DNA of 64,000 nucleotides from the NCBI RefSeq assembly GCF_005166025.1, contig NZ_CP028923.1, positions 2,730,001 through 2,794,000 on the forward strand. Reading direction: 5' to 3'. The stretch is from Mangrovivirga cuniculi. Lineage in GTDB: Bacteria; Bacteroidota; Bacteroidia; Cytophagales; Cyclobacteriaceae. Each line of letters opens with the position of its first letter. The first letter of the stretch is position 1. A model generated the notes under the pieces. It made no database searches. It was not told the origin of the DNA and saw nothing but the letters and a program-made list of their open reading frames with translations. Below are positions 3,047 through 49,124 of this stretch, in pieces. The position numbers and the translations under genes are program-made.

Positions 3047-3068
3047 CGATATATAATTAGTTGTTATT

Positions 3069-19572: not shown

Positions 19573-21126
19573 ATGAAATTTCTATTAACCACTTTTCTAT
19601 CTTTTGTCATTCTCAATATTATGAATGCCCAGGATAAACCAAATATCCTTGTGATATGGGGAGACGATGTCGGACAGTCAAACATCTCAAATTACACAAA
19701 GGGTGTTATGGGTTACCAGACACCCAATATTGATCGAATTGGCAAAGAAGGAATTACCTTTACTGATTATTACGGAGAACAATCTTGTACAGCCGGTCGA
19801 TCCTCGTTTATTATGGGGCAAAGTGTATTTAGAACCGGATTATCAAAAGTCGGATTACCCGGAGCAAAAGAAGGGATGAATGAAGCTGATCCAACTATTG
19901 CAGTTATTTTGAAAGACCAGGGTTATTCCACCGGGCAATTTGGAAAAAACCATCTGGGTGATCGTGATGAGCACCTACCTACCAATCATGGTTTTGATGT
20001 GTTTTTCGGTAATCTCTACCATCTAAATGCCGAAGAAGAACCAGAAAATGAAGATTACCCGAAAGATCCGGAATTCAGGAAAAACTTTGGACCAAGAGGA
20101 GTAATTAAATCTACAGCAGATGGTAAAATCGAAGATACTGGTCCACTTACAAAGAAAAGAATGGAAAGTATCGATGATGAAACTTCAGATGCTGCAATTG
20201 AATTTATTCGTGAACAACATGAGGCAGGCAACCCATGGTTTGTCTGGTGGAATGGAACAAGGATGCATTTTCGTACTCATGTCAGTGAAGAACGCATGGC
20301 CAAATTCAAAGAAAAATATCCCCACGCCGACGAATATACTGTGGGAATGTTAGAACATGATATGCATATTGGGAAATTCCTCGATCTATTGGATGAATTA
20401 GGTATTGCAGAAAACACTATCGTACATTATTCTACAGATAATGGTCCTCATTATAATACCTGGCCTGATGCTGCTGCAACTCCCTTTAGAGGAGAAAAGA
20501 ACACAAACTGGGAAGGAGGCTGGAGAGTTCCAGCCATGGTAAGATGGCCAGGTGTTGTAAAACCCGGAACTGTATCCAATGGTATCGTTCATCACATGGA
20601 TTGGTTACCTACTTTTGCTGCCGCAGCTGGAAAAGAAAATATTAAAGAAGATCTTCTCGATGGGTATACTTCCAGTGCATTAGGGAGAAACTATAAAATT
20701 CACCTTGATGGATATGACCTTAGAGAACATCTTAAAGATCCTCAAAATGTAGAAAGTCCAAGAGAAGAAATATTCTATTTTTCAGACGATGGCGATCTGA
20801 CCGCATTAAGATATAAAGACTGGAAGGTGATTTTCATGGAACAAAAAACACAAGGAACTTTCCGGGTGTGGATGGAGCCGTTTGTTCCTTTACGAGTACC
20901 GTTAATTTTTAATTTAAGAAGAGATCCTTACGAAAGAGCAGAAGAAACCTCTAATGTTTATTATAATTGGCTACTTGATCGCGCATATATTTTAGTGCCT
21001 GCTCAGGCTTATGTAGGTAAATTCTTAGAAACTTTTAAAGAATATCCTCCAAGACAAAAAGCCGCAAGCTTTTCATTGGATAAAGTGATGGAAACAATGG
21101 CCGATGGAGCTACCGGAGCCAGATAA
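19573..21126 (+). CDS. Secreted S1-family sulfatase 1
   Basis: A 517-residue exported arylsulfatase-type enzyme that hydrolyses sulfate esters in the periplasm or outside. A signal peptide (to NAQ, residue 20) is followed by the N-terminal metal-binding [14 protein letters not shown]. The active-site signature is CTAGR with C72, which must be converted to formylglycine, then GKNHLGD and YSTDNGPH (second metal-site and catalytic residues). The form is C-x-A-x-R rather than the more common C-x-P-x-R. First gene of the 14-kb sulfatase/DUF3604 cluster. No formylglycine-generating or radical-SAM maturase gene is in the window. Natural substrate unknown. Confidence 0.93.
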   Translation: MKFLLTTFLSFVILNIMNAQDKPNILVIWGDDVGQSNISNYTKGVMGYQTPNIDRIGKEGITFTDYYGEQSCTAGRSSFIMGQSVFRTGLSKVGLPGAKEGMNEADPTIAVILKDQGYSTGQFGKNHLGDRDEHLPTNHGFDVFFGNLYHLNAEEEPENEDYPKDPEFRKNFGPRGVIKSTADGKIEDTGPLTKKRMESIDDETSDAAIEFIREQHEAGNPWFVWWNGTRMHFRTHVSEERMAKFKEKYPHADEYTVGMLEHDMHIGKFLDLLDELGIAENTIVHYSTDNGPHYNTWPDAAATPFRGEKNTNWEGGWRVPAMVRWPGVVKPGTVSNGIVHHMDWLPTFAAAAGKENIKEDLLDGYTSSALGRNYKIHLDGYDLREHLKDPQNVESPREEIFYFSDDGDLTALRYKDWKVIFMEQKTQGTFRVWMEPFVPLRVPLIFNLRRDPYERAEETSNVYYNWLLDRAYILVPAQAYVGKFLETFKEYPPRQKAASFSLDKVMETMADGATGAR

Positions 21127-21192
21127 GAATATTTTTGACATTTAATCGAGGGGTGATTTGATTCATCCCTCTTCATAATATTTTTAAAGAAA

Positions 21193-22209
21193 TTGAAAAA
21201 GAAAATAATAATTTTATCCATTACAATTTTATTTCATTATTGTAGTTATTCACAATCAACCCGCAGATATGACAACGAAATATATAACAGGTATTTTGAT
21301 AGCCTGGAGCAAATGGAGTACAACAAAATTTTGCCTGTTTTGGGTAAACAAGCTTATAAAAGAGGATATGATATTCAATATGCTTACGGAATCAGTGGGG
21401 TTTATTTTACGCAAACACAGGAAATACAAATTGACCGTACATTAATTGGATTTAACGATGGAGAATTGGTTGACCTGAGTGACTTTGTAGTTTTTGCTCC
21501 TACAGTGGCAACAACTAATGCTTATACAATCAGACCAGATATCTGGATTTTACCATTTCTAAATGTTTATGCAATAATCGGGGGTGGTACCACAGAAACA
21601 GATGTTACTTTATTAAATCCTGTTGGAATTCGAACCACTCAGAGATTTGGAGCGTCATCTTTTGGTTTAGGCGTAACAATTGCCGGGGCAATAGGGCCTG
21701 TCTGGCTAGCGCTGGATAATAATTATAACTGGGCAGATGTCGAAGTAGTTGTTGAACCGGTGCCTGCATACAATGGCAGCCTGAGAGTCGGTCATACATT
21801 CTTTAATCCCAATAACCCACAAAGCAACCTGGCTATATGGGGAGGTTTCTTTTACCAGGTAATACAAAGTGATACAGAAGGAAGCATACCTCTACAGAAT
21901 GTGTTTCCTAATGTCGGAAGCGGGCAGACCATAGATAATTTAAGAGACTGGGCTGCTACTCTCCCACCACCACAAAGATTAGTCGCTAATCAAATCATTA
22001 ACAAACTTGAGGATATCAGTAACGGAATTGATCCCGGAAATGCGACGATAAATTATAAACTTGATAAAAAAGTAGCGAAACCAATAAACCTGATTTTTGG
22101 TGCTCAATATCAATTTAATAAACGATGGATACTCAGAACTGAGTTGGGAGTGTTTGGTAAAAGAAGTCAGTTTATGCTAAACTTAAATTACCGGTTTATC
22201 GGATTTTAG
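21193..22209 (+). CDS. Putative outer-membrane beta-barrel protein between sulfatases
   Basis: A 338-residue exported protein I do not recognise. It begins with a TTG codon (no suitable ATG upstream) and a signal peptide (MKKKIIILSITILF to SYSQ). The body alternates polar and aromatic residues in amphipathic strands (FGLGVTIAGAIGPVWLALD, LAIWGGFFYQVIQ, WILRTELGVFG) and ends in an aromatic residue (NYRFIGF), as expected for an outer-membrane barrel. Its place between sulfatases 1 and 2, 66 bases after the first, suggests passage of sulfated substrate or product. The family is unknown. Confidence 0.65.
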   Translation: MKKKIIILSITILFHYCSYSQSTRRYDNEIYNRYFDSLEQMEYNKILPVLGKQAYKRGYDIQYAYGISGVYFTQTQEIQIDRTLIGFNDGELVDLSDFVVFAPTVATTNAYTIRPDIWILPFLNVYAIIGGGTTETDVTLLNPVGIRTTQRFGASSFGLGVTIAGAIGPVWLALDNNYNWADVEVVVEPVPAYNGSLRVGHTFFNPNNPQSNLAIWGGFFYQVIQSDTEGSIPLQNVFPNVGSGQTIDNLRDWAATLPPPQRLVANQIINKLEDISNGIDPGNATINYKLDKKVAKPINLIFGAQYQFNKRWILRTELGVFGKRSQFMLNLNYRFIGF

Positions 22210-22343
22210 AACATTATATACCCGGGAAAGTTATAAAATTTTATATTACACTACTAACTGAAAATTAAACTTCAGGCTAAAATGTAATTGTATGGAAAAA
22301 AAGCACATTTAAAATTATTTATCAATCAATAATACCAAATGTT

Positions 22344-23915
22344 ATGAGAAGCAAATTAATATTTTCAATTTTCCTGTTAAGCCTTCCACTGATGCTGAAT
22401 GCTCAGGACAAACCCAATATTTTAGTAATCTGGGGAGATGATATTGGATGGTCAAATTTAAGTGCATACGAACATGGAGTTATGGCTTATAGAACTCCTA
22501 ATATTGACCGAATAGGTCTGGAAGGAATTATATTTACTGACCATTATGCCCAGCCGTCATGTACAGCTGGAAGAGCTGCTTTTATTACTGGTCAGTATCC
22601 GATAAGATCTGGAATGACCACGGTAGGACAACCAGGAGATGCATTAGGTCTTCAAAAAGAGTCTCCAAGCCTTGCAGAAGTACTTTTAGCACAAGGCTAT
22701 AGTACCGGGCATTTTGGCAAAAATCACCTGGGAGATCGAAATGAGCATTTGCCAACTGTTCATGGATTCGAAGAATTTTTCGGAAATCTTTATCACCTAA
22801 ATACACAGGAAGAAGCAGAGCAAAGAGATTATCAAAATTTTGCAAGAGCATATGAAGGATCTTTAGAGGAATATGAAAAGAAATTTGGCACCCGGGGAGT
22901 AATCCATTCGTTCGCCACCGATGAATATGATGATACGACAGATCCCAGATTTGGAGAAGTTGGGAAACAACGAATCACTGATACCGGTCCTCTAACCCAG
23001 GAGAGAATGAAAAATTTTGACCGGGAAGAAGTTATACCAAAAGCACTTGATTTTATAAAACAGTCTAAAGAAGATGATGAGCCTTTCTTTGTATGGTTAA
23101 ATACCTCCAGAATGCACCTATACACCCGAATTGAAGATAAATGGTTAAATAAGGTAGAAAAATACACGAGTGAGGCGGATTACTACGGTGCAGGAATGTT
23201 ACAACATGATTCAGATATTGGATATGTATTAGATCAACTTGAAGAAATGGGATTATTAGACAATACCATCATTTTGTATTCTACAGATAATGGTCCGGAG
23301 CATGCTTCATGGCCTCATGGAGGTACAACACCCTTCCGGGGAGAGAAAATGACAACATACGAAGGAGGCATCAGGGTTCCCTGTATGGTTAGATGGCCCG
23401 GTAAAATCCCAGAACGACAACTACTAAATGGAATTCAGGGACATCAGGATCTATTTACAACATTGGCAGCTGCTGCAGGTGTAGATAATGTTGCAGAAAT
23501 GATTATGGAAGAAAAGAATCAATATATTGATGGAGTCAACAACCTGGATTACTGGATGGGTAAAACAGATAAGTCTGCCCGTAATCATATATTTCATTAT
23601 TATGAAAGTAAGTTAACAGCAATAAGAATGGGGCCCTGGAAGTTTCATTTCTCCACTAAGGAAGATTACTATGCTAACCTGGAACCCCGGACTGTACCAT
23701 TGGTATTCAACATTCGAATGGATCCATATGAAAGCTATGATAACACAGATTCTTATGGGCATCTGATGCAAAAAGTATCCTGGCTTATTCAACCAATGGG
23801 TGAATTAATGGGACATCATTTGAATACGCTAAAAGAATATCCACCGGTACAGGGTGGTAAATCATTTGATATGTCAAATGTTGTACAAGAGTTTATTAAT
23901 AAAGCGAAGCAGTAA
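22344..23915 (+). CDS. Secreted S1-family sulfatase 2
   Basis: A 523-residue paralogue of the first sulfatase, with signal peptide (to NAQ), [14 protein letters not shown], active-site CTAGR (C73), GKNHLGD and YSTDNGPEH. Relative to sulfatase 1 it has an insert near residues 165-215 (around [12 protein letters not shown]). Both metal-site Asp pairs and the basic catalytic residues are kept, so it should be active if matured. It follows the barrel gene by 134 bases and precedes sulfatase 3 by 38. Divergence between the three copies suggests different substrates or positions on one substrate. Confidence 0.93.
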
Positions 23916-23953
23916 TGTAACTATAGAGTATTAACTATTAACCATTAACCAAT

Positions 23954-25498
23954 ATGAATAAAATTAAATCCTTTAAACAATGTTTATTACTTGGGTTATT
24001 TATGTTTTCGTCAATAGTGATGGCCCAGGATAAAGAAAAACCCAATATTCTTATAATCTGGGGAGATGATATCGGCATGTGGAATATCAGTGCCTATCAC
24101 AGAGGAATGATGGGAGGATCTACTCCTAACATTGATAAAATAGCACTTGAAGGAATGATCTTTATGGATCATTTAGCTCAGGCGTCATGTACAGCAGGAA
24201 GAGCAGCTTTTATCACCGGGCAGTATCCTATTCGTACCGGACTGACTACTGTAGGGCTTCCCGGAGCAAAAGAAGGAATTCAGGATAGTGATCCTACCCT
24301 GGCATCTATGCTCAAGGACCATGGTTATGTTACCGGGCAGTTTGGTAAAAACCACCTGGGTGATCGGGATGAACACCTTCCTACTGCTCATGGATTTGAT
24401 GAGTTTTATGGTATTCTTTACCATCTTAATGCCGGTGAATATCCTGAACAATACGATTTTCCGAAGGATGAAAAAACGCTGGAAAAGTGGAATCTCGATC
24501 AACGCGGGATCATCCATTCTAAAGCACTCGCTGACGGGTCCCAGGAAATCGAAGACCTGGGTCCATGGGGGCGTGAAGTACAGAGAACTCTTGATCAGCA
24601 GGTAATGGAGCAGTCAAAGCGATTTATCAGGGATGCAGTTGAAGATGACAAGCCTTTTTTCGTATGGCACAATACGACACGCATGCACTATCGTACGAAC
24701 CTGAGTGATGAATACGAAGGAAAGAGCGGTTATGGTCTTTATGCAGACGGTATGATGGAGCTGGATGATGATGTTGGGGAATTACTGGCTCTTCTTGAAG
24801 AACTTGGTGTAGATGAAAACACTATTGTTATGTTCTCTACTGACAACGGAGCACCATCTAATTCATGGCCGGATGGCGGAAATCACCCATTTCATGGCGA
24901 GAAAGGTGTAGGAGGCTGGGAAGGCGGTTTTAAAGTTCCAATGATGGTTAAGTGGGATGGTAAAATACCTGCCGGCACTCATACTGGTGAATTTATGACT
25001 ATGGAGGATTGGGTGCCTACACTCATGTCATGGGTTGGTGATGATGATATCAAAGAAGATCTACTTGATGGCATGGTTATCAATGGCAAAGAATATAAAG
25101 TACACCTTGATGGATATGATCAAAGCGATATTTTGCTAAATAATGGTAAAACTAACCGGAAAGAATTTTTCTACTTTACAGAAACCGTTTTTCACGGTAT
25201 GCGTTTCACAGACTGGAAATTACTTTTCATCGACCAGGAAGAATGGTTCCGTGCCGAACAGGTACCGCTTTCCACTCCTATTCTTATCAACCTGAAGCTG
25301 GATCCATTTGAAAGATTTATCGAAGCCCGCGGATATGATGAGTGGGCCGAAAACAGGAGCTGGATTCTTGGACAGGCCGGTAAAATTATTGGGAGATTCG
25401 TGCAAAGTTTTGAAGAATATCCACCCAGTCAGAAAGGTATGTCTGTTCAGGTCACTAATTTAAGTGAGAAAATTAATAACATGCCGGGATCGCGTTAA
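23954..25498 (+). CDS. Secreted S1-family sulfatase 3
   Basis: A 514-residue third sulfatase. The signal peptide ends near MAQ (residue 25); then KPNILIIWGDDIG, active-site CTAGR (C79), [13 protein letters not shown] and FSTDNGAPS follow. It shares the CTAGR form and the GQYPIR.G extension with its neighbours, pointing to local duplication. Base composition in this gene looks slightly richer in GC than in sulfatases 1 and 2. A 14-bp inverted repeat follows its stop codon. Confidence 0.93.
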   Translation: MNKIKSFKQCLLLGLFMFSSIVMAQDKEKPNILIIWGDDIGMWNISAYHRGMMGGSTPNIDKIALEGMIFMDHLAQASCTAGRAAFITGQYPIRTGLTTVGLPGAKEGIQDSDPTLASMLKDHGYVTGQFGKNHLGDRDEHLPTAHGFDEFYGILYHLNAGEYPEQYDFPKDEKTLEKWNLDQRGIIHSKALADGSQEIEDLGPWGREVQRTLDQQVMEQSKRFIRDAVEDDKPFFVWHNTTRMHYRTNLSDEYEGKSGYGLYADGMMELDDDVGELLALLEELGVDENTIVMFSTDNGAPSNSWPDGGNHPFHGEKGVGGWEGGFKVPMMVKWDGKIPAGTHTGEFMTMEDWVPTLMSWVGDDDIKEDLLDGMVINGKEYKVHLDGYDQSDILLNNGKTNRKEFFYFTETVFHGMRFTDWKLLFIDQEEWFRAEQVPLSTPILINLKLDPFERFIEARGYDEWAENRSWILGQAGKIIGRFVQSFEEYPPSQKGMSVQVTNLSEKINNMPGSR

Positions 25499-25528
25499 AA
25501 TTTTTAATTCGATTTATAAATATATCCG

Positions 25529-25575
25529 ATTTTATAAAAGTCTTTTTCGAAACTTGAAATGGACTTTTATAAAAT
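25529..25575. repeat. 14-bp perfect inverted repeat after sulfatase 3
   Basis: ATTTTATAAAAGTC (25529-25542) and GACTTTTATAAAAT (25562-25575) with a 19-base spacer, 31 bases after the sulfatase stop and about 190 before the DUF3604 start. There is no following T-run. The inner TAAAAGTC/GACTTTTA arms echo TAAAAGTG/CACTTTTA ahead of sulfatase 1. The rest of the 263-base gap shows nothing else I can name. Confidence 0.55.
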
Positions 25576-25761
25576 TTCTATAATAATACACTTTGAATTA
25601 ATATTTATAAACAAATATTATCAGCATACTCAAAACCGTTACTATTGTTGTTTTTTCATTATCTTAATATAATAATCAAAATAATAGTCTATTTAAGTGG
25701 TTTCTATAGTTAAATCAAGGCTTTGAAATCATAAATTATTTATGCCAAACTCACATGATCT

Positions 25762-27660
25762 ATGAAAAATTTCAACTACCAATTACTGGTCTTGTTGGGA
25801 GTCCTGGTAATCATTTCCTGTTCGGGTAATCAGGAAAATGAAAATGTGACTGAAACCACTGAGACAGATAAAACAGAAACAGAGATAAAAAACAATCCCC
25901 TTAAAGACGTCTATTGGGGTGATACTCATAATCATACCGGAAATTCATTCGATGTATTTTTATTTGGAACACCAAATTCTACTCCTGAAACAGCTTATAG
26001 ATTTGCCAAAGGTGAAGAAGTAGAAAGTCCCACTTCTGGAAGACCAATGAAACTGACTGAGCCACTGGATTTTCTGGTCGTTGCAGATCATGCAGAAATG
26101 CTTGGTGCATTTACTTTGCTTTATGATAATAATCCTGAAGTAGCAAATACGAAATCCGGAAAAAAATTCCTTGAAATCAATCCGGATAAAAATAATGAGG
26201 AAGGACTTCAGAAAATCTACGACATCCTCAATTATGCAGGTTTTGATGAACCAAATGAGGCTGATTTAGGTAGTAAAGACTTGATGAATGACCTTGGGGG
26301 TGAAAATAGAAAGGAAGCATGGTACCGATATATTGAAACTGCTGAAAGGCATAATAATCCTGGAACATTCACAACCTTAATTGGATGGGAATGGAGTTCT
26401 AACGCGGGAGGAGCTAATCTTCATCGGGTGATTTTTATGCCACAGGATGGTGGTGTTGGAAAACAATTTTTACCATATAGTGCATTATACAGTGAAGATC
26501 CCGAAGACTTATGGAAGTTTCTTGAAGAAACGAGTTCCCGTGTCGGGGCAGAATTTGTTGCAATTCCCCACAACCCTAATATTAGTCTCGGCTTAATGTT
26601 TCCTGAAACCAGGCTAAATGGTGAGCCTGTTAATGAAGAATATGCCAGGACAAGAATGAAATGGGAAAAAAATGTAGAAGTAACCCAAATAAAGGGCGAT
26701 TCAGAAACTCACCCCGCTCTTTCTCCCAACGATGAATTTGCAGATTATGAAACCTATGACTTTGCCCTTACACCTGACGGAAGAAGAGCTGAGCCAACTA
26801 AGGCAGATTACGTGCGATCCGGATTAAAAAGAGGTCTTGCATTAGAAGAAAAAATTGGCGTTAATCCATATAAAGTAGGAATGGTTGGAAGTAGTGATTC
26901 GCATACGGGGATGTCGGCAATTGAAGAAACAAATTTCGCTGGCAAAGGGCAACACGATGCCACTCCTGAAAAACGCCCACATCCTACAGGTATAGGATCG
27001 TCTAAAGGCTGGGATATGGGCGCTGCCGGTTGGGTGGCTGTATGGTCTGAAAGTAATACGCGTCAGAGTATTGTCGATGCCTTTCAACGAAAAGAAGTAT
27101 ATGCTACTACCGGACCGAGGATCAAACTCAGGTTTTTTGGAGGGTTTGATTTTTCAGACAGTGATCTGGGAACCGATATGGTTGAAACCGGCTATGACCG
27201 CGGTGTGCCAATGGGCGGTGATCTGAGCCCGAGTGGAGATAATGCACCTACGTTTATGATTTCTGCAATCAAAGATCCTAACGCGGCCAACCTGGATAGA
27301 ATACAGGTAATCAAAGGCTGGCTTGAAGCGGATGGAAGTACTAAAGAAATGGTCTATGATGTAGCTTTATCTGATGACAGAACAGACGGAAGTGAACCTG
27401 TTGGAAATACAGTTGATCTGGCGACAGGAAAATATACTAATACAATTGGTGATGCTGAATTAAAAGTTGTCTGGACAGATCCTGATTTTGATCCGACAAA
27501 AAATGCTTTTTATTATGTCAGAGTACTTGAAATTCCAACTCCGAGATATTCTCTTCTCGATGCCATAGAACTGGGAATTGACGTAAAAGAAACAAATCAC
27601 CCGGCTACGATTCAGGAAAGAGTATATAGTTCACCGATTTGGTATACCCCCTCTAATTAG
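25762..27660 (+). CDS. DUF3604 lipoprotein, copy 1 (PHP-like motifs)
   Basis: A 632-residue lipoprotein (lipobox with C20, VLVIISCSG) of the DUF3604 family, function unknown. Four spaced motifs resemble the metal-binding motifs of PHP-fold phosphoesterases: YWGDTHNHTG (H56, H58), VADHAEML (D109, H110, E112), AIPHNPN, and GSSDSHTG. The C-terminal third (about 460-632) contains conserved blocks shared with the second copy, such as RIQVIKGW, VWTDPDFDP and FYYVRVLEIPTPR. A metal-dependent hydrolase outside the cytoplasm is my inference. It follows the three sulfatases and leads a tight run of four more genes, so it may act on the desulfated product or a related compound. Confidence 0.85.
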   Translation: MKNFNYQLLVLLGVLVIISCSGNQENENVTETTETDKTETEIKNNPLKDVYWGDTHNHTGNSFDVFLFGTPNSTPETAYRFAKGEEVESPTSGRPMKLTEPLDFLVVADHAEMLGAFTLLYDNNPEVANTKSGKKFLEINPDKNNEEGLQKIYDILNYAGFDEPNEADLGSKDLMNDLGGENRKEAWYRYIETAERHNNPGTFTTLIGWEWSSNAGGANLHRVIFMPQDGGVGKQFLPYSALYSEDPEDLWKFLEETSSRVGAEFVAIPHNPNISLGLMFPETRLNGEPVNEEYARTRMKWEKNVEVTQIKGDSETHPALSPNDEFADYETYDFALTPDGRRAEPTKADYVRSGLKRGLALEEKIGVNPYKVGMVGSSDSHTGMSAIEETNFAGKGQHDATPEKRPHPTGIGSSKGWDMGAAGWVAVWSESNTRQSIVDAFQRKEVYATTGPRIKLRFFGGFDFSDSDLGTDMVETGYDRGVPMGGDLSPSGDNAPTFMISAIKDPNAANLDRIQVIKGWLEADGSTKEMVYDVALSDDRTDGSEPVGNTVDLATGKYTNTIGDAELKVVWTDPDFDPTKNAFYYVRVLEIPTPRYSLLDAIELGIDVKETNHPATIQERVYSSPIWYTPSN

Positions 27661-27731
27661 GATAAAGCTATCTATTTCCTGAATTATAAGATTTTTCGTA
27701 TTGATTCAAGAACTAGTAACCGATCAGTAAT

Positions 27732-28559
27732 ATGAAACATTATATTCTAAACATAAGGCTAATTGCGATCTTTTTCTTCGTTCAAACAGGGTTTATCGGA
27801 TTTTCGCAGGAAGATGCCGCTAAACCTGCAAGCTCTGAAGCCGAAGAACTTGCAAAGAAACTGGCTAACCCAATTGCTTCTCTAATTTCAGTTCCCTTTC
27901 AAAATAATACGGATTTTGGTATTGGAGAATTTGAAGGGACAAGAAATACATTGAATATCCAGCCTGTGGTACCCATTAAGCTATCTGAAAATTTAAATCT
28001 GATAACAAGATATATTTTCCCGGTTATTACTCAATATAATATAACCGAACCCGGTAGTAAGCAAAGTGGCTTAAGTGATGCGGTAGTATCTGCATTTTTC
28101 TCTCCCAGTAATTCAGAAAAGTTTACCTGGGGTGTTGGGCCTGTGTTTCTATTACCTATTGGGTCTAATGACTTTCTTACAACTGATCAATTTGGAGTGG
28201 GGCCAACTGCAGTCGCCCTTACCCAAACGAATGGATGGACCTTCGGAGGATTGATAAACCAGATATGGTCAGTATCCGGAGATGAAGATCGACAGGATGT
28301 CAGCCAGATGTTTTTTCAACCTTTTATCGTTTATAACTGGAAATCAGGATCCGGCATTGGAGCAAACATAGAGTGGACTCAAAACTGGGAAACCTCGGAA
28401 GGAACTATTTGGTTTAATCCTACTTTTAGTGCAGTTAGTGCCATGGGGAAACAAAAATTTCAATTGGTTATCGGCCCAAGATTCAACCTGGATGCACCTG
28501 ATGGAGCCAGAGCAGACCTTGGTGGAAGAGCAGTTCTTATCTTTCTTTTCCCTAAATAG
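27732..28559 (+). CDS. Outer-membrane transporter-like protein (MetA-pathway/phenol-degradation type)
   Basis: A 275-residue exported protein with signal peptide (to FSQ) and a small beta-barrel body. The segment LANPIASLISVPFQNN followed by NIQPVVPIKL is characteristic of proteins annotated as transporters of the Phenol_MetA_deg type (sometimes misnamed neuromedin U). It ends ...AVLIFLFPK. These are thought to form small channels for hydrophobic or aromatic compounds, though evidence is thin. It lies 71 bases after DUF3604 and 52 before the isomerase gene. It could admit the substrate of the sulfatase/DUF3604 pathway. Confidence 0.72.
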   Translation: MKHYILNIRLIAIFFFVQTGFIGFSQEDAAKPASSEAEELAKKLANPIASLISVPFQNNTDFGIGEFEGTRNTLNIQPVVPIKLSENLNLITRYIFPVITQYNITEPGSKQSGLSDAVVSAFFSPSNSEKFTWGVGPVFLLPIGSNDFLTTDQFGVGPTAVALTQTNGWTFGGLINQIWSVSGDEDRQDVSQMFFQPFIVYNWKSGSGIGANIEWTQNWETSEGTIWFNPTFSAVSAMGKQKFQLVIGPRFNLDAPDGARADLGGRAVLIFLFPK

Positions 28560-28611
28560 GAAACAAATAAACTAATTAATATTTTAATATCAATCAAACC
28601 AATTTGTATCT

Positions 28612-29484
28612 ATGAAGAAGCTTTTAAAAGAGCCATTTCTCCATTTCGTATTAATAGGGCTGCTTATATTTATGGTGTATTCATTAACCACTGACGAATA
28701 TGATTCTGATAAGGACATCATTATTGATGATAGTGATATCAGTCACCTGGTGTCTATCTGGGAATTACAATGGCAGCGCGAACCCACTACTGAAGAACTA
28801 ACCGGATTAATTAAGAAAACAGTTAAACAAGAGGTGATGTACCGGGAGGCATTAAAGATGAATCTCGACCATAACGACGAGATAATTAAAAGAAGACTGG
28901 CTCAGAAAATGGACTTTCTTACTAATGATGTTTCTGCCTTGGTTAATAAACCAAGTGATGAAGATCTTGAATCTTATTACAAAGAAAATTCAGGCCGGTA
29001 TCTTCGACCACATCAGTTTAGTTTTTACCAGGTATGTTTCACTTATGATAATCATTCAGACCCGGTGAATCAGGCTAAACTAATTTTAAATGACAATAGT
29101 GATCTTTCTCCCGAACAGTTTATGAAATTTGGTGACCCTCTTCCGTTCCCCTATTATTATGAGAGTATTTATGCCAATAAACTAAATTCGGAACTCGGTG
29201 GTAAAATAGCCGAATCACTTCAAGAGCTTCCGCTAAACCAATGGACCGGTCCTGTGGAATCCGGTTTTGGAACACATTTGATTTATTTAACCGACAGAAC
29301 AGAACCCAAACTACCCTCATTTGCTCAAATGAAAGATGTAATCAGGAGAGATTACGATTATGATATGGAAATAGAAAGCCGCAAGAAGATCTATGACAAT
29401 ATAAAATCTGGATATGAGCTTAAGCTGAAAGCTAATCTGGATAAAGAATTGAAAGATAAAATTATGTCGGAATTTGGGAGTTAA
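28612..29484 (+). CDS. Membrane-anchored parvulin-like peptidyl-prolyl isomerase
   Basis: A 290-residue protein. An N-terminal anchor (LHFVLIGLLIFMVYSL, about residues 10-26) is followed by a SurA-like helical domain and a rotamase region (about 120-265) with the parvulin-type end GPVESGFGTHLIYLTDR. Such isomerases fold exported or outer-membrane proteins. Its end nearly abuts the HupE/UreJ gene, so the two are co-translated. In this cluster it probably serves folding of the secreted enzymes or barrels. The rotamase domain is divergent, so catalytic activity is uncertain. Confidence 0.8.
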   Translation: MKKLLKEPFLHFVLIGLLIFMVYSLTTDEYDSDKDIIIDDSDISHLVSIWELQWQREPTTEELTGLIKKTVKQEVMYREALKMNLDHNDEIIKRRLAQKMDFLTNDVSALVNKPSDEDLESYYKENSGRYLRPHQFSFYQVCFTYDNHSDPVNQAKLILNDNSDLSPEQFMKFGDPLPFPYYYESIYANKLNSELGGKIAESLQELPLNQWTGPVESGFGTHLIYLTDRTEPKLPSFAQMKDVIRRDYDYDMEIESRKKIYDNIKSGYELKLKANLDKELKDKIMSEFGS

Positions 29485-29488
29485 TATA

Positions 29489-30487
29489 ATGATCAAAACA
29501 ATGAAAAATTTATTCTTTTTGTTGATCACGATGATATTACTGCCGCTTCACATCGCAGCCCATGAAATGAGACCGGCTTATCTTCATATCAAACAAGTTG
29601 ATGAAAATACTTATAATGTATTCTGGAAGATCCCCAGAAGAGGTGATATGGTTCTCCGGCTTCACCCTGTTTTTCCTGAATCAGATAACCTAAGAGAGCT
29701 AACCATCCCAAAAGTAATGGAGGGTGCCATGTTATATTCATATTCCCTTACTACCCAGTCACCGTTAGAAGGTCAGAATCTTACCATTGATGGTCTGCAA
29801 AAGACAATGATTGATGTATTAGTCAACGTTGATTATTTGAATGGAGAAAAAGTATCCTTCATGTTAAAACCGGATGAACCTGAAAAGGTCATCCCGGGTA
29901 GAATAAGTACTTTCCAGGTTATCAAAAGTTATACGGTACTTGGAGTAGAACATATTTGGTTTGGAATCGACCATTTACTATTCGTATTGGCACTTATTAT
30001 CATCACAAAAGGATTTAAAAAGATTGTTAAAACGATCACCGCTTTTACTATTGCCCATAGTATTACGTTGAGCATGGCTGTATTGGGCTTTGCCAATCTA
30101 CCGGGACCACCCGTTGAAGCAGTAATTGCGCTAAGTATTATTTTTCTGGCGGTTGAAATAGTAAAAAATATAAATGGCCAGGAAACGATCACCAGTAAAA
30201 AAACCTGGCTGGTTGCCTTTACATTTGGCCTGTTGCATGGCTTTGGATTTGCCGGAGCGCTGGCTGAAGTTGGTCTTCCTCAATCTGATATTCCCCTGGC
30301 ATTAGCTTTTTTCAATATCGGTGTTGAAATAGGACAGATTGCCTTCGTTGTGGTTGTGCTTGCAGTGATCAGAGGTTTAGCACTAAAAAAGGACTGGCCG
30401 GTTATCCTCAAAAAGGTACCAGCCTATGCAATCGGATCTATTGCCGCTTTCTGGACTATCGAACGAATTGCCGGTTTCTGGATTTAA
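29489..30487 (+). CDS. HupE/UreJ family membrane protein
   Basis: About 332 residues. A signal or first helix (LFFLLITMILLPLHIAA) is followed by a periplasmic beta domain (HEMRPAYLHI, about 25-145), then six or seven helices with the HupE/UreJ signature HIWFGIDH (the HX5DH pattern) and FTIAHSITL, plus LLHGFGFAGAL. HupE and UreJ transport Ni or Co for hydrogenase and urease; the larger two-domain form seen here has unknown cargo. I chose ATG 29489, just after the isomerase stop, over an in-frame TTG at 29474. No hydrogenase or urease is present, so a metal supply for the DUF3604 or sulfatase enzymes is a possible role. Confidence 0.82.
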   Translation: MIKTMKNLFFLLITMILLPLHIAAHEMRPAYLHIKQVDENTYNVFWKIPRRGDMVLRLHPVFPESDNLRELTIPKVMEGAMLYSYSLTTQSPLEGQNLTIDGLQKTMIDVLVNVDYLNGEKVSFMLKPDEPEKVIPGRISTFQVIKSYTVLGVEHIWFGIDHLLFVLALIIITKGFKKIVKTITAFTIAHSITLSMAVLGFANLPGPPVEAVIALSIIFLAVEIVKNINGQETITSKKTWLVAFTFGLLHGFGFAGALAEVGLPQSDIPLALAFFNIGVEIGQIAFVVVVLAVIRGLALKKDWPVILKKVPAYAIGSIAAFWTIERIAGFWI

Positions 30488-30516
30488 GAATAATTTTATG
30501 ACATCCATCTTTATAA

Positions 30517-31578
30517 ATGGTAAAATCAAAGTTACTTTACTTACTCTTAATCAGCTTTTTATGCTTGTTTAATCCCGATATAAATGCCCAGGAGAGGCCT
30601 GAGAAAGAAAAGAAATTCAGAATTATTGGTCTGCCGACAATTGATTATAATCGGTCTATCGGATTTAAGATCGGTGCAATGGGCATGGGATTTTTTGACA
30701 TGAGTGAAAAGGATACCCTCTCTCCCATCTCATCAGTTGGCGTTATGGGATTCTGGTCAACTAACAAATCCTGGATGACTTTGGCGTATACTCAGTTATT
30801 CTTTGCTCAAAATAAAATGAGAATTAAGGCTGCGGCGGGTTTAGTTGATTTCAATTTTCAATATTATGAAGATACTTTTTTTCCGGGAGGTGTATTCATT
30901 GATTTTAATACGGCATCAGATTTCGCTTACATGAATATCGGCTTCCGGTTAAGAGAAAATTTGTACTTCGGACCTCAGTTAATTTTTTCAAAAAGGGAAA
31001 CACTCTTTGATATTCCTGTAGATATCGAAAATGGAACACAATCTTTTAATGGAATTGGCGGAGTGCTGGAATGGGATAACCGTTCGAATGTATATAATTC
31101 GCATTATGGCTTATTTGCGAAGTTATCTACATTCAATTACCGCGACTGGCTGGGATCAGATGTGAAGTTCAACAATATCCAATTAGAAGTGAATAAATAT
31201 TTCCCGATAGACTCATTGCGAACAGTAGCTACCCGATTATACGGTTATTTTGCCGTTGGTGATGAAATACCTTTTGAAGGACAGCGAACGATTGGCAGAA
31301 CTGATATCCGAGGCTATACTCAGGGAGAATTCCGTGGAGAACAAAATATAGCTTTACAAGCAGAATACCGATGGACTTTTCATAACAAATGGGGAATGGT
31401 GGCTTTTACCGGAATGGCTATTTCACATGCACCGGATGGCTGGAGTCAGCTACTGCCGGGTGGTGGCGCCGGGTTGCGATATATGATGATCCCGGATAAG
31501 AGGATAAATGCCGGGATTGATCTGGCTGGAGGAGTCCGTGATTGGGGGATTTATTTCAGAATAACAGAGGCATTCTGA
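30517..31578 (+). CDS. BamA/TamA-like outer-membrane barrel without POTRA domains
   Basis: A 353-residue exported barrel. A signal peptide (to NAQ) is followed by about 16 predicted strands and the Omp85-type signature near the C-terminus: TIGRTDIRGYTQGEFRGEQ followed by LQAEYRW, where RGY-x-G is the lid-lock region of BamA-like barrels. The length leaves no room for POTRA domains, so it is a short surface-antigen-type member rather than a true assembly factor. Last plus-strand gene of the cluster; its stop codon lies inside a 16-bp inverted repeat. Possible role: secretion or uptake pore for the cluster. Confidence 0.78.
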   Translation: MVKSKLLYLLLISFLCLFNPDINAQERPEKEKKFRIIGLPTIDYNRSIGFKIGAMGMGFFDMSEKDTLSPISSVGVMGFWSTNKSWMTLAYTQLFFAQNKMRIKAAAGLVDFNFQYYEDTFFPGGVFIDFNTASDFAYMNIGFRLRENLYFGPQLIFSKRETLFDIPVDIENGTQSFNGIGGVLEWDNRSNVYNSHYGLFAKLSTFNYRDWLGSDVKFNNIQLEVNKYFPIDSLRTVATRLYGYFAVGDEIPFEGQRTIGRTDIRGYTQGEFRGEQNIALQAEYRWTFHNKWGMVAFTGMAISHAPDGWSQLLPGGGAGLRYMMIPDKRINAGIDLAGGVRDWGIYFRITEAF

Positions 31579-31607
31579 TTTCTAAAACTTTAATCAGAAT
31601 GCCTCTG
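31565..31607. terminator. 16-bp perfect hairpin at the convergent end of the cluster
   Basis: CAGAGGCATTCTGATT (31565-31580) and its exact complement AATCAGAATGCCTCTG (31592-31607), with an 11-base loop. The first arm contains the last codons and TGA of the BamA-like gene; the second lies just before the stop of the opposing DUF3604 gene (31625). It is probably a bidirectional terminator, although T-runs are weak on both strands. Confidence 0.65.
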
Positions 31608-31624
31608 CTATATCAAACTAAATA

Positions 31625-33481
31625 TTAATTAGAAGGCTCATACCATATAGGTGAACCCCATGCCCTTTCAACAATCTGTTTTGGAATACGATCGGGGAAA
31701 TCTACTCCTTCACGGATTTCATCATATAAATTCCACCTGGCAGTAGGCAATTGTAAAACTCTTATGTAATAATATGCATATTCATTCGGGTCAAAATCAG
31801 GATCAGTCCATACACCCATTAACTCCGCACTTCCTTTTTCTTTATTATACTCACCGGTTTCAAGATCTACAGGAGCATCTATCGGAGTTACGGATCCATC
31901 AGAATTCATTCTGTCTCCAGAAGCTACAACATTGTATACTTTATCTTTCATTTCACCATTTTCAACCCATCCCTTTATGATCTGAATTCTATCAAGTCCT
32001 GGTCCGATTGGGTCTTTTATTGCCCAAACCAAAATTTGAGGTGCAGATTCTCCATTATAATTTCCTCCCATCGGAACTCCATTTGCATATCCTGCTTCAA
32101 CTAGAGCATTATTTGATTCGTAGCTATCCTCATAGTCCTGACCGGCAAAAGCCCTGACTTTCATTCTTGGTCCACTGGTGGCAAAAGTCTCTTTGGCATA
32201 CATAGCATCCCAGATAGCCTCACGGGTATTGGATGTTGCCCACACACCTGTTATAGCTCCCGTACTCATGTCAGCTACAGTTAGCTCACCATCCATATCC
32301 CTGGTAGCCCTGTCTTCAGCGGTCTTATCTACTACCCCATGGCTACCTACCATATAATTATCTTCAGCTACATTGCTGGGGCTACCATTATGACTATCAG
32401 TACCACCAACGAAACCATATTTAAATGGGTTAGTCCCAAATTCCTCCTGATATTTTAATCCTCTGGTCAGACCATACCTTACAAAATCTTGCTTGGTAAA
32501 GATTCGATCATTGAATTTTTGTATAGAAACCGCATTTTCAAAATCTGCAAACTCATCATTTGGCCAGAACTTTGGAAATACCTCTGAATTACCTTTGATC
32601 TGCATCATTTCAATCAATGGTTCCATACTATTTCTTAATTCAACATATTCTCTAGTAATCGGATCTCCGCTTAGTGTTTGTTCAGCAAATTCCATTTGCT
32701 TTCCTTCATTTGAGTTATGCGGTACACAAAATACTCTCATTCCTTTATCACGCTGCTCCTGTAACCACTCCCAGAGTTTGATTGGATCGGGACTTTCATT
32801 AGAAGAAAAGGGTATTTCCGGAAGATTTGTATCTCTAAAGAATACATTTCTATGAAGATTCGCTTCATCTGGTGCAGCAGACCACTCATAGGCGTGAATG
32901 GTAGTGAAAGTTCCAGGATCGTAATGCTTTTCTGTTGCCTCGATATTTCGTTGCCAGGCTGATTTAATTGATTCTTCACCTTGGAAAAACGGTGGATGAG
33001 GACTTCCTCCCCCTGCTAATGCATCCAGAACATATTTTTTATAGAGGCCTAAAGCCTTTTGATAGTCTGTCGTTTCTCTGAATTCTTTGGCAACCGGATG
33101 ATCATACCCCGGGGCTCCGGAAGTTAGCAAAGACATCGATTCACCCATGAATTCTGAGTGGTCTGTCACCGCACACCAATCCAAAGGTCTTTTGATGCTG
33201 TGCATACTTCCATTTACCATGACTTCTTCGCCTTTGGCAAATCGATATGCTTCGTCCGGGGTGAGTCGGGTTCCAGCTATGAAAGCATCCATCGAAACAC
33301 CGGTATGCAAATGTGTTTCTCCAAAATAGGCTTCCTTTAATGGATTTTCTTCAACTTCTCTTGAAGTTTCAGTGTCTGTAGTCATTTCGGCATTCTGATC
33401 ATCAGAATCCTCATTAATATTACCACAACTCACCAATACCAAGATAAAGATTGTGTACAATAGGTATATTATTTTTTTCAT
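31625..33481 (-). CDS. DUF3604 lipoprotein, copy 2 (PHP-like motifs)
   Basis: A 618-residue lipoprotein (lipobox VLVSCG, C19), a diverged paralogue of the 632-residue DUF3604 protein at 25762, and convergent with the cluster. It keeps all four candidate metal motifs: FGETHLHTG (H57, H59), VTDHSEFMG (D107, H108, E110), CVPHNSNEG, and GGTDSHNGS. The C-terminal blocks RIQIIKGW, VWTDPDFDPNE and YYYIRVLQLPTARW are also shared. Keeping the same putative catalytic residues in both copies supports an enzymatic role. Upstream lies a 292-base gap holding an AT-rich hairpin. Substrate unknown. Confidence 0.85.
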   Translation of the reverse strand: MKKIIYLLYTIFILVLVSCGNINEDSDDQNAEMTTDTETSREVEENPLKEAYFGETHLHTGVSMDAFIAGTRLTPDEAYRFAKGEEVMVNGSMHSIKRPLDWCAVTDHSEFMGESMSLLTSGAPGYDHPVAKEFRETTDYQKALGLYKKYVLDALAGGGSPHPPFFQGEESIKSAWQRNIEATEKHYDPGTFTTIHAYEWSAAPDEANLHRNVFFRDTNLPEIPFSSNESPDPIKLWEWLQEQRDKGMRVFCVPHNSNEGKQMEFAEQTLSGDPITREYVELRNSMEPLIEMMQIKGNSEVFPKFWPNDEFADFENAVSIQKFNDRIFTKQDFVRYGLTRGLKYQEEFGTNPFKYGFVGGTDSHNGSPSNVAEDNYMVGSHGVVDKTAEDRATRDMDGELTVADMSTGAITGVWATSNTREAIWDAMYAKETFATSGPRMKVRAFAGQDYEDSYESNNALVEAGYANGVPMGGNYNGESAPQILVWAIKDPIGPGLDRIQIIKGWVENGEMKDKVYNVVASGDRMNSDGSVTPIDAPVDLETGEYNKEKGSAELMGVWTDPDFDPNEYAYYYIRVLQLPTARWNLYDEIREGVDFPDRIPKQIVERAWGSPIWYEPSN

Positions 33482-36815: not shown

Positions 36816-37993
36816 TTAATTTTTCATCATACCGATAATACCAGATTCCAGTCCTCTCAATTCTGCCAGACCTCTTAATCTTCCTATTGCTGAATATCCG
36901 GGATTTGTTTTTTTGGTAAGGTCATCTAACATCTGATGCCCGTGATCAGGTCGCATCGGGATGGGATGTGATCGTTTTTGTTGTTCTATAACAAGTTCTT
37001 TCATCACATTAAACATATCCACATCGCCTCCAAGGTGATCAGACTCATAAAATGAGCCTTCTAAATCACGTTTTGTGCTTCTCAAGTGAATAAAGTTGAT
37101 CTTATTTCCTAGTTTTCTAACCATCCCTGGCAGGTCGTTATGCATCATGACACCAAAAGAACCGGTACAAAAACATACTCCATTACTTGGGCTATTTATA
37201 GCATTTAAAATACCCGTAATATCCTTTTCGGAGCATACCACCCTGGGTAGCCCCAGAATCTGATATGGTGGATCATCGGGATGAAGAGCCATTTTTATGT
37301 TATTCTTTTCAGCTACAGGGATAATTTCTTTCAGAAACTGAATTAAATTATTATGAATATCCACATTTGATAAACCTTCATAAGTTTTGAGAATCTTTTT
37401 GAAATCATTAATTGAATTCACACCTGCAGTCATTCCACCAGGTAATCCTGCTATAATATTTTTTGTGAGAGTTTTAATTCCTGAATTACTTAACTGTTTA
37501 AAATAGGCTTCTGCCTTCTTGATTAATTTTCATTATAATCTTCAAATGCGCCTTTTCTCCTTAAAATAAAAAGTTCAAAAGCAGCGAAAGCAATCTTATC
37601 AAATTTCAATGCCGTAGATCCATCAGGCATTACAAAATTGAGATGGGTACGAGTCCAGTCAACTACAGGCATGAAATTATAGGTGACGATATTTATCCCA
37701 CATTTACCAAGATTTTCTATCGTTAAATTATAATTATAGATATACCGATCAAATTCTCCTGATCTTCGCTTAATATCTTCATGAACAGGAATGCTTTCTA
37801 CTACGGACCAGGTTAGCCCAGCCTTTTCTATTACCCTTTTTCTTTCTTTTATTGCTTCAACTGGCCATATCTCTCCTATTGGAATTTGATGTAATGCCGT
37901 AACTATACCAGTTGCTCCTGTCATTTTAATATCTTTCAAGGTAACAGGATCTGAGGGACCATACCATCTGAATGTTTGTTCTAATCTTTTCAT
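36816..37993 (-). pseudogene. uxuA: Mannonate dehydratase, broken by a 1-base frameshift
   Basis: D-mannonate dehydratase (D-mannonate to 2-keto-3-deoxygluconate) of glucuronate catabolism. The N-terminal part ([17 protein letters not shown], start 37993) reads to a stop just after DYNEN. The rest (GGMTAGVNS, ALHPDDPP, MRPDHGHQ) is one frame away. Adding one A to the coding-strand A4 run at 37527-37530 restores continuous sequence ([12 protein letters not shown], then NIIAGLPGGMTAG) and a 392-residue protein, the usual UxuA length. The ATG begins one base after the stop of the upstream SDR gene. Either a true pseudogene or a homopolymer sequencing error; the intact catalytic motifs favour recent loss or error. 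Confidence 0.88.
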
Positions 37994-37994
37994 G

Positions 37995-38809
37995 TTATAT
38001 TCCCGAATATGCAGTGAATCCGCCATCTACAGGTACGGTAATTCCGGTTACCAGGCTACTCGAATCACTACACAACCATAAAACTGTGCTGATCAATTCT
38101 TCAGGTCTTCCAAATCGTCTAATTGGAATATGTTCTATAATTTTCTCTCCTCTTTCTGTGAGTGAACCATCATCTTTCAGAAGTAAATTTCTATTTTGCT
38201 CCCCGATAAAGAAACCAGGTGCTATTGCATTTACACGAATTTCAGCAGAATATTTTTGGGCCATTTCAACTGCCATCCATTTAGTGAAATTTTCGATGGA
38301 AGCTTTTGCTGCAGCATAACCTACCACCCTTGTAAGCGGTTTGTGAGCAGCTACTGATGAAATATTTATTATACACCCTGAATTTTGCTTTGCCATTTGC
38401 TGGCCAAATATTAAAGATGGCAAAACCGATCCCTGTAAATTCAAGTCAGTTACTTTACTAAAGTCATCAATATTCATTTTAAAAAAATCATCATCAGGCC
38501 CTATAGTTGCTCCTGATACATTTCCTCCTGCTGCATTGATTAAGATGTCTACCTTTCCCCATTTTTCCAGAATTTCATCACTGGCATCAGTCAAGGAGGC
38601 TTTATCTAATACATTTGCAGCAATAGTAATAACCTCAGTTGATGTTTTTTTTATTATTTCATTTTTGCTTTATCTAGCTTTGTACTAGTTCTCCCTAAAA
38701 GAACAATTTTTGCTCCACGAGAGGCTAAACCTGAGGCCATTGCACTCCCAAGCACACCACCACCTCCTGTTATTATAGCTATTTTATTTTTAATATTATC
38801 TTCGTACAT
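37995..38809 (-). pseudogene. SDR oxidoreductase (probable mannonate oxidoreductase), frameshifted
   Basis: Short-chain dehydrogenase of 271 residues when repaired. The N-terminal NAD(P) motif IITGGGGVLG lies in the frame starting at ATG 38809 (MYEDNIKNK), which stops after LDKAK. The rest (NAAGG, ISSVAAHK, catalytic [17 protein letters not shown]) is one frame off. One extra A in the A5 run at 38662-38666 joins them as KAKNEIIKKTSTEV. The position immediately before uxuA suggests fructuronate/mannonate interconversion, as in other Bacteroidota uxu loci; this is inferred from context. A conventional start at the TTG near 38594 would lack the NAD-binding motif, so the reading as a shorter gene is rejected. 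Confidence 0.85.
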
Positions 38810-43749: not shown

Positions 43750-44822
43750 ATGAGAATATTTAGTTATTTGTTCATTTGCCTGTGTTTGGTTTCATGTGTA
43801 GAGGAAGATTACTTTGGTTTATCTAATATTGGTAACATAAAGAATATTGTAGTCAGCAATCAGGCAAAGAATGCCAGTATTAATACTCAAGATAAACAGT
43901 CCGAGTTGAAATACCCGGTGGAGTTGATCTTTCAACGATTACAATAGAAACATTGGAAATTTCATCATTCGCGACTTCTGATAAACAAGTTGGAGATGTA
44001 CTTGATCTGAATTCACCTCAGGAAATTCAGATCACAGCAGAAGATGGGAGCACTTATGTATGGACAATTACTTCATTTGTCGCTTCTGCTACACCCCAAC
44101 TCGATAACGGAGATCTCAATCTATGGTACCAAACCCCTTCTAATTATTATGAACCAGGAGAAAGTGCTTCTAATACCATATGGGGGACCGGTAACCAGGG
44201 TACACAGATATTAAATAAACTAGCCACTATACCAGAAGATCTGGGTAATGAAAACCTGGCTGCAAATATGACTACTTTGGATAATGGGTCTTTAGCGGGC
44301 ACATTTGGAGCCCCAATAGCTGCCGGATCTATTTTTACGGGGAGGTTTAATCCCGACGAAATTGACATCTCAGATCCAGAGGCAGCAATCGAATTTGGCA
44401 CTCCTTTTACTGGAAGGCCGGTAAAAGTGCGTTTTAAATACCAATATATACCCGGAGATGTTAATAAAAATAAAGTCGGTGAGGTATTAGAGTACCCCGA
44501 TATGCTTGATATCTATGCTCTATTAGAAGTACGACTGGGAGGGAAAACTGAACGTTTGGCAACAGCATGGTTTAGAAGCAGCGATGTTGTTGAGGAATTA
44601 ATTACGAAAGAGATTGAATTTACTTATGGCGAATTAGACGCGAGTTTTCCGGATTACATGAGACCAACAGATCATGGTTTTGTAAGTGAAGATTCTGCAA
44701 GTTTTATACTACCAACTCATATTACTTTTGTTGCTTCCAGTAGTTTCGATGGAGCTAATTTTGCAGGAGCAATAGGTAGTGAACTTATCATCGATGATAT
44801 CGAAATGGTATATGAGGAATGA
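43750..44822 (+). pseudogene. PCMD-domain lipoprotein, frameshifted
   Basis: The N-terminal lipoprotein signal (MRIFSYLFICLCLVSC, ATG 43750) lies in one frame that stops at 43947. The PCMD (putative carbohydrate metabolism) domain is in the next frame (EDGSTYVWTI, NTIWGTGNQG, KVRFKYQYIPGD, LIIDDIEMVYEE). Adding one A to the A3 run at 43894-43896 gives DKTVRVEIPGGVDLSTITI and a continuous 357-residue protein with the usual order: signal, Ig-like linker, PCMD. PCMD proteins are surface lipoproteins near glycan loci in Bacteroidota. The two-frame state is a mutation or a sequencing error. Confidence 0.8.
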
Positions 44823-45641: not shown

Positions 45642-45642
45642 C

Positions 45643-48684: not shown

Positions 48685-49124
48685 TTATTTACTTTCCATT
48701 GATGGGTTTCATCTTCGAAAATCTCTTTGCCGAAAATGGGCACTTTAGCCTTAATTTCTTCTACAAAATAATTTGTTGCTTTAATTGCGATTTTTCTACG
48801 AGCGGAAGAAGTGAATACAAACAAGCACAATTCGCCTTTATTGACTTTTCCCAGGCTGTGGTAGATATGAGCACAGGTGATGTCAAATTTTAAAAAAGCA
48901 GATTCTCTTATTTCGTGAAAAACCTGTTCCGCCATATCTTTGTATGCGGTATACTCAATAGCGTATACCGTTTTGCCATCAATCTCATCTGCACGCACCT
49001 GGCCGAGAAAAATGCTATGCGCACCAATATTGGTTTTAGATTGATGATTTGCCACCGACTGGGCAATTTTTTCGGGTGGTATAGCACCTTCAACAAATAC
49101 TTTCTTTGGTTTTTTCTTATCCAT
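48681..49124 (-). CDS. moaE: Molybdopterin synthase large subunit MoaE
   Basis: A 147-residue catalytic subunit converting cPMP to molybdopterin with sulfur from MoaD thiocarboxylate. It contains GAHSIFLGQVRADEIDGKTV, IEYTAYKDMAEQ and HIYHSLGKVNKGEL. The essential Lys pair near the C-terminus is seen in KVPIFGKEIF. Overlaps moeB by eight bases. Confidence 0.94.
   Translation of the reverse strand: MDKKKPKKVFVEGAIPPEKIAQSVANHQSKTNIGAHSIFLGQVRADEIDGKTVYAIEYTAYKDMAEQVFHEIRESAFLKFDITCAHIYHSLGKVNKGELCLFVFTSSARRKIAIKATNYFVEEIKAKVPIFGKEIFEDETHQWKVNK

Follow-up and report, generated by a model that had tools for sequence, protein, structure and literature searches.

The 64,000-nucleotide stretch of Mangrovivirga cuniculi DNA analysed here (contig NZ_CP028923.1, positions 2,730,001 to 2,794,000; hereafter the window) carries, at window positions 19573-33481, a cluster of ten genes that is real and conserved. 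Three of them, encoding a DUF3604 protein, a membrane-anchored parvulin-type isomerase and a two-domain HupE/UreJ-2 protein, are the wider conserved core and very probably form one functional unit, and the three sulfatases of the cluster are an accessory, lineage-specific addition. The genome is a single contig of 4.66 Mb.

A conserved trio of genes

A scan of species genomes with a DUF3604 alignment gave 593 confirmed loci, of which the best 80, biased to close relatives, were compared. A parvulin gene was found within 6 kb in 37 of the 80, a HupE gene in 34 and both in 33. When only the 41 loci with 5 kb of room on both sides are counted, both partners were present in 20 and either of them in 23. 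All three genes stood close together on one strand in 33 of the 101 loci examined (L046 onwards), in the order DUF3604-parvulin-HupE in 30 of these, and the parvulin and HupE genes overlapped by four bases in 19. The trio loci include some labelled Bacteroidota, Pseudomonadota, Thermodesulfobacteriota, Krumholzibacteriota and Verrucomicrobiota, several of which are metagenome-assembled genomes with possibly wrong labels.

DUF3604 is rare in the phylum and in the family. It was found in 3 of 247 genomes of the phylum and in 14 of 148 genomes of the family, with 11 large matches and three weak partial ones. In the 11 genomes other than that of the window whose loci were fetched, the trio is together in nine, absent in one (G372) and fragmented in one (G303), and G320 carries an additional lone DUF3604 gene. 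The DUF3604 family spans many phyla, sometimes with several copies per locus. Among plasmid records, 79 match DUF3604 and 130 match HupE; four of the five plasmids opened have the trio (from Ruegeria, Sinorhizobium, Rhizobium leguminosarum and Pseudoalteromonas, the last reached via its HupE match), and the fifth, from Salipiger, has DUF3604 alone. Two DUF3604 relatives were found on viral contigs. In a tree of 79 DUF3604 proteins the two window copies fall in distant clades and the phyla interleave, the latter implying that the family moves between lineages. Across 34 trios the pairwise distances of the partners are correlated, with r values of 0.74 for parvulin/HupE, 0.55 for DUF3604/parvulin and 0.39 for DUF3604/HupE, as compared to maxima of 0.27, 0.21 and 0.24, respectively, in 2000 permutations; shared host ancestry may add to these correlations.

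The coupling is also seen in the distribution of the HupE protein. Its membrane part, PF13795, was present in 137 of the 148 genomes of the family (the matches listed are mostly in frames of some 200 codons), and the periplasmic N-domain of the window's HupE protein in nine. All nine belong to the 11 genomes with a large DUF3604 match (hypergeometric p 7.5e-13, relatedness ignored; the nine genomes come from 6 genera), and in all nine the N-domain match shares a contig with a DUF3604 match.

The first-pass annotation of this DNA had taken sulfatases, DUF3604, HupE and isomerase together as a candidate uncharacterised pathway, to be checked by a gene-neighbourhood search for DUF3604 with sulfatase and HupE. 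Such a neighbourhood is indeed present in other genomes, and its DUF3604-parvulin-HupE part holds across phyla. Sulfatases recur there, within 8 kb of DUF3604 in 9 of the best 80 of 593 loci, but they are not part of the core. A search of 5.39 million open-access papers turned up no account of this neighbourhood. The same papers gave nothing on HupE with UreJ and sulfatase or on DUF1254 with arylsulfatase, only 11 seemingly off-topic papers on HupE with peptidylprolyl isomerase, and a single paper naming DUF3604, a Chlamydia transposon study, in a table.

Proteins of the secreted family DUF1254/DUF1214 were observed near DUF3604 in L047, L059, L062, L121, L139 and L142, in L062 some 8 kb past the trio of a congener. 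They may belong to the same gene pool as DUF3604.

The gene cluster and its counterparts

The ten genes, with families from Pfam and NCBIfam scans of the open reading frames (ORFs), are:

19573..21126, + strand: SULF1, secreted S1 sulfatase of 517 aa; PF00884 E 7e-48, CTAGR at residue 72, best PDB relative 7AJ0 with 191 bits
21193..22209, + strand: OMP338, probable outer-membrane barrel without known family; homologues in L054, L058 and L065
22344..23915, + strand: SULF2, secreted S1 sulfatase of 523 aa; PF00884 E 2.8e-53, CTAGR at residue 73
23954..25498, + strand: SULF3, secreted S1 sulfatase of 514 aa; PF00884 E 2.7e-52, CTAGR at residue 79, 7AJ0 with 207 bits
25762..27660, + strand: DUF3604a, lipoprotein with a predicted PHP-like metallohydrolase domain and a C-terminal beta part; PF12228 773 bits, PHP-type ligand positions, weak PHP fold matches
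27732..28559, + strand: OMP275, probable outer-membrane barrel without known family; homologues in L054, L058, L059, L065 and, weakly, L130
28612..29484, + strand: parvulin-type peptidyl-prolyl isomerase with an N-terminal membrane anchor read from the sequence; Rotamase_2 PF13145 E 4.8e-14
29489..30487, + strand: two-domain HupE/UreJ-2 protein; HupE_UreJ_2 PF13795 E 1.9e-47 over residues 153-300, behind a separate N-terminal part
30517..31578, + strand: Omp85-type barrel without POTRA; PF01103 E 2e-6 over 158-298, kept in L058 and L062
31625..33481, - strand: DUF3604b, lipoprotein, convergent to the other nine; PF12228 685 bits, 71% identical to the DUF3604 protein of a Pseudoalteromonas trio (L048)

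The scans confirmed the ten ORFs and the families first given to them, and also their close spacing, the gaps between the nine + strand genes (19573 to 31578) being at most 263 bases. The HupE gene likely starts at ATG 29489, and the ORF list gives TTG 29474. OMP338 and OMP275, which matched nothing in Pfam or NCBIfam at E 0.1, are probably outer-membrane barrels, and a Pfam scan gave no POTRA hit in the Omp85-type protein. Between the cluster genes there was no strict match to the Bacteroidota promoter motifs, and one -7-like octamer at 21130.

PF00884 has 8 matches in the whole genome (4.66 Mb), of which two are probably parts of a single broken gene. Since three of the eight sit in the cluster, and since both other genomes of the genus that were examined (G308 and G363) contain DUF3604 and keep the cluster, the grouping is not due to chance. 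G308 has SULF1, OMP338, SULF2, two DUF3604 genes (one split over two frames), OMP275, parvulin, HupE and Omp85, without SULF3, and also retains the downstream kinase, peroxiredoxin, exonuclease-phosphatase and porin genes. G363 has SULF1, OMP338, SULF2, four consecutive DUF3604 genes, SULF3, OMP275, parvulin, HupE and Omp85, and the kinase and porin genes were not found in the 10 kb following it. The cluster loci of these two genomes have no close copy of DUF3604b. A rearranged version is seen in Christiangramia gaetbulicola (Flavobacteriaceae, L065), with two related sulfatases, three DUF3604 proteins, Omp85-type proteins, relatives of OMP338 and OMP275, a parvulin and a 708-aa protein that is only distantly HupE-like. 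In G372 one sulfatase, two DUF3604 proteins, an OMP275 relative and two DUF1254/DUF1214 proteins are grouped, without parvulin or HupE.

The cluster resembles the polysaccharide utilisation loci of the Bacteroidota in that secreted sulfatases adjoin outer-membrane proteins, but no SusC/SusD pair with carbohydrate-active enzymes was found at the locus, no glycoside hydrolase or lyase was named among the scanned ORFs (a part of those in the window), and the 11 SusD matches of the genome all lie outside the window. An ordinary polysaccharide locus was thus set aside, in agreement with the first-pass annotation, which had noted neither a SusC/D pair nor a glycoside hydrolase.

Downstream of the cluster there are genes for a PfkB kinase, a broken D-mannonate dehydratase, a broken SDR protein and a DcaP-type porin. 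The dehydratase is in two frames and the SDR protein misses its N-terminal part (window 36816-38594), these being either pseudogenes or assembly indels. The uronate genes were rejected as a part of the cluster, since G308 (L058) lacks them where the neighbouring genes are the same. Further on, a PCMD ('putative carbohydrate metabolism domain') protein is encoded at 43953-44822, and at 44886-55983 there are molybdenum cofactor synthesis genes, XdhC, a molybdopterin-binding oxidoreductase subunit and a TauE/SafE (sulfite exporter family) protein. At the other end of the window (52-7016) there is an RND efflux system whose CusB-like adaptor carries a heavy-metal-binding domain. Elsewhere on the contig, a gene resembling that of the formylglycine-generating enzyme (FGE) is split over two frames (1156470-1157395), and another sulfatase gene has an in-frame stop (2054239-2055251). 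Several genes being split, there is a hint that the assembly may carry indel errors.

DUF3604 as a predicted PHP-type hydrolase

Nine residues of DUF3604a, His56, His58, Asp64, Asp109, His110, Glu210, His270, Asp379 and His381, are identical in 60 of 60 DUF3604 proteins (the two window copies and 58 chosen by hand from 97 listed), and in a second set of 21 proteins eight of the nine positions are invariant. As in the PHP family, these positions are presumably metal ligands. The AlphaFold2 model of DUF3604a has a mean predicted local distance difference test score (pLDDT) of 92.6, and when it was compared to the PDB with Foldseek, the PHP proteins 3o0f, 3e0f and 9etk (RNase AM) came 3rd, 33rd and 35th in rank, with matches of about 400 columns (E 0.01-0.04, TMt ~0.35). 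Because the nine conserved ligand-type residues stand in a PHP-like spacing, and because PHP entries are among the weak fold matches, we infer that DUF3604 is a divergent secreted PHP hydrolase. It is like the PHP phosphoesterases in its HxH, DH, E, H and DxH ligand-like positions and in the extent of the fold matches, and unlike them in being secreted, with long insertions, an extra C-terminal beta part and weak structural scores.

The HupE protein

In the window's HupE protein the apparent signal peptide is followed by HEMRPAYL (cleavage site read by eye). The first residue after the signal peptide is His in 19 of 25 proteins, a set consisting of the window protein and 24 others that passed a length and score filter, and in 13 of 13 in another set. 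The HupE model (pLDDT 89.3) gave one match below 0.001 when compared to the PDB with Foldseek, ZrgA of V. cholerae, 8ezw (E 8e-4, TMt 0.58). The main text of PMC12537917 (2025) describes Ang-1-HupE/UreJ-2 'anglerases' of the same architecture, where His1 binds copper (74 nM) and nickel (220 nM), and a crystallised Ang-1 domain (PDB 9GCE as cited there) with the zinc-binding V. cholerae protein 8F1B as its nearest fold. The entry 9GCE was not among the best 50 structure matches of our model. The window protein shares with the anglerases the two-domain organisation, in which a signal peptide and a separate domain precede the PF13795 membrane part, as well as the His directly after the apparent signal peptide and a fold match of ZrgA/Ang-1 type.

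The sulfatases

SULF1, SULF2 and SULF3 are 44-49% identical to each other. All three have PF00884 and CTAGR and are S1 sulfatases, the catalytic motif of which is C/S-x-P/A-x-R. The best solved relative is in each case 7AJ0, with 191 bits as compared to 130 for the next molecule for SULF1, 196 to 155 for SULF2 and 207 to 155 for SULF3. This is PsFucS1, which excerpts of PMC8484680 describe as an S1_13 sulfatase acting on fucoidan oligosaccharides, with His491 and Glu495 proposed for specificity. As read by eye from the alignments, with a derived numbering offset of 9, His491 is replaced by Asn in SULF1 and by Arg in SULF3; SULF3 retains Glu495, which is Asn in SULF1. SULF1 and SULF3 align with PsFucS1 over nearly the whole length, but the similarity is modest, the window sulfatases have CTAGR where PsFucS1 has CTSSR, and no fucoidan-degrading setting was found; the GH29 fucosidase family has zero matches in the genome.

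The closest solved sulfatase leans towards a carbohydrate substrate, and the small sulfated sterol, aromatic or lipid guessed at in the first-pass annotation is a less likely candidate. A clear assignment to a carbohydrate-sulfatase subfamily, which was named there as refuting that guess, is not reached: an S1_13 enzyme is the best solved relative, but the similarity to 7AJ0 is too low for it, His491 is changed in SULF1 and SULF3, and GH29 is lacking genome-wide. None of the three sulfatases scored above the cut-offs set in the equivalog models for choline-sulfatase and arylsulfatase.

Sulfatases within 10 kb were found at 7 of 33 trio loci as compared to 2 of the 47 other loci, many of which lie on short contigs; these rates are uncorrected for background. 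The number of sulfatases varied from 4 to 83 in 12 genomes, so in sulfatase-rich genomes DUF3604 may have such neighbours by chance. In L125, L139 and L144 sulfatases lie within or next to the trio and share its strand, and in L054, L058 and L065 they stand around DUF3604. SULF2 shares 67% identity with proteins encoded on plasmids of Vibrio pelagius and Cupriavidus; its plasmid matches amount to 615 records, and of five that were opened, the four with annotation share no consistent partner. Two further loci, L151:9944-18781 and L131:406-8881, concern a sulfatase of the same branch that adjoins a MoxR-DUF58-VWA (Bat-type) operon, in Persicobacter by annotation and perhaps, as guessed from ORFs, in Marinobacterium. 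A copper link from HupE to FGE was considered and dropped, the FGE gene being split over two frames, though true-looking by its two-cysteine motif, and 26 of the 33 trio loci having no sulfatase within 10 kb.

Proposed function and alternatives

We propose, with a probability of roughly 0.4 for the explanation as a whole, that the cluster arose in this genus as an extension of a three-gene cassette, itself spread horizontally, of DUF3604, membrane-anchored parvulin and two-domain HupE/UreJ-2. DUF3604 would most likely be a lipid-anchored or periplasmic PHP-fold hydrolase that needs two or three metal ions, and the parvulin would fold DUF3604 or a partner at the inner membrane. The ZrgA/Ang-1-like periplasmic domain of HupE would catch a transition metal and its membrane part pass it on, the metal and the direction of transport both being predicted, so that the metal supply of this metalloenzyme system would be kept in hand. 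In this genus the three S1 sulfatases would have joined the cassette, together with two small barrels resembling porins and one of Omp85 type. Compounds of a single class could thereby have their sulfate esters cleaved outside the inner membrane, and also a second bond, a (phospho)ester or something similar, with the products entering through the barrels; a substrate common to the sulfatases and DUF3604 is presumed here.

Several observations weigh against this proposal. HupE-type permeases are proposed to import metal to the cytoplasm, and this leaves the metallation of a periplasmic enzyme without a direct explanation. Neither partner was found within 6 kb at 18 of the 41 well-flanked DUF3604 loci, which means that DUF3604 can work without them. 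The DUF3604 model had no PDB match at E <= 0.001, and its top rows were beta-sandwich proteins, which presumably reflect the C-terminal part; sequence searches of the PDB with HupE and DUF3604 gave no matching chain. His381 is lost in 1 of the 21 proteins of the second set, the second copy in L059. The N-domain search used one sequence as query and will therefore have missed diverged N-domains: it missed the HupE protein beside DUF3604 in G386, and longer PF13795 frames (254-429 codons) are present in the DUF3604-less genomes G248, G259, G333, G355 and G365. Related sulfatases are also found alone or in quite different settings. The HupE branch of the window differs from the anglerases in having Asp after the signal peptide in 6 of the 25 relatives and in its neighbours, and metal binding is predicted only. 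The frequent neighbours given in PMC12537917 are DUF4198, indigoidine A-like and PfkB proteins, and its main text has no mention of DUF3604, sulfatase or isomerase.

It is possible, if unlikely, that the sulfatases are S1_13-like carbohydrate enzymes trimming algal oligosaccharides imported by porins, and that the trio is an unrelated neighbour of such a sulfated-carbohydrate side locus. The lead of 7AJ0 (PMC8484680) over the other solved relatives of all three sulfatases, by 41-61 bits, would fit, as would the kinase, dehydratase, SDR and porin genes downstream, the PCMD protein further on and the SusD matches elsewhere in the genome. On the other hand, the lack of a glycoside hydrolase, lyase and SusD at the locus and of GH29 in the genome, the change of His491 and the absence of the uronate genes in G308 speak against it, and in other phyla DUF3604 again has sulfatases nearby, which by score represent more than one branch. 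It is doubtful that the cluster serves the catabolism of a small sulfated aromatic, sterol or lipid. No TonB-type receptor was named in the cluster, which suits small substrates, SULF2-like proteins are common to different phyla at 67% identity, and DUF3604 genes have Phenol_MetA-type barrels near them in L125 and L130 and DUF1254/DUF1214 proteins in 3 of the best 80 of 593 loci. However, the Pfam name Phenol_MetA_deg is hardly informative on substrate, the sulfatases score below the equivalog cut-offs, and no ring-cleaving, oxygenase or beta-oxidation genes were named in the cluster.

A loose pile-up, where independent mobile cassettes (the sulfatases, the trio and the second DUF3604 gene) came to lie side by side without shared function, would agree with the interleaved phyla and the distant clades of the window copies in the DUF3604 tree, with the high identity of DUF3604b to a Pseudoalteromonas protein and its lack of a close copy at the congener loci, and with the variable contexts of the sulfatases. 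It is nevertheless improbable, as DUF3604, sulfatases, OMP338, OMP275 and Omp85-type barrels stay together, if in varied order, in the congeners and Christiangramia, something that drift by itself could hardly preserve. A variant of the proposed cassette function, very improbable at present, is that the trio is an undescribed metal-scavenging system: the PHP hydrolase would cleave an organic, metal-chelating ester bearing phosphate or sulfate, the sulfatases would remove its sulfates and the N-domain of HupE would catch the freed metal. If this were true, nutrient and metal acquisition would be one process.

The combination of the widespread trio with three sulfatases suggests a linked function in nutrient or metal scavenging. 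The coupling of DUF3604 to one kind of HupE N-domain makes two unknowns a testable pair, in which DUF3604 should use the same metal that HupE carries, and it would suggest a function for one branch of the newly described anglerase family.

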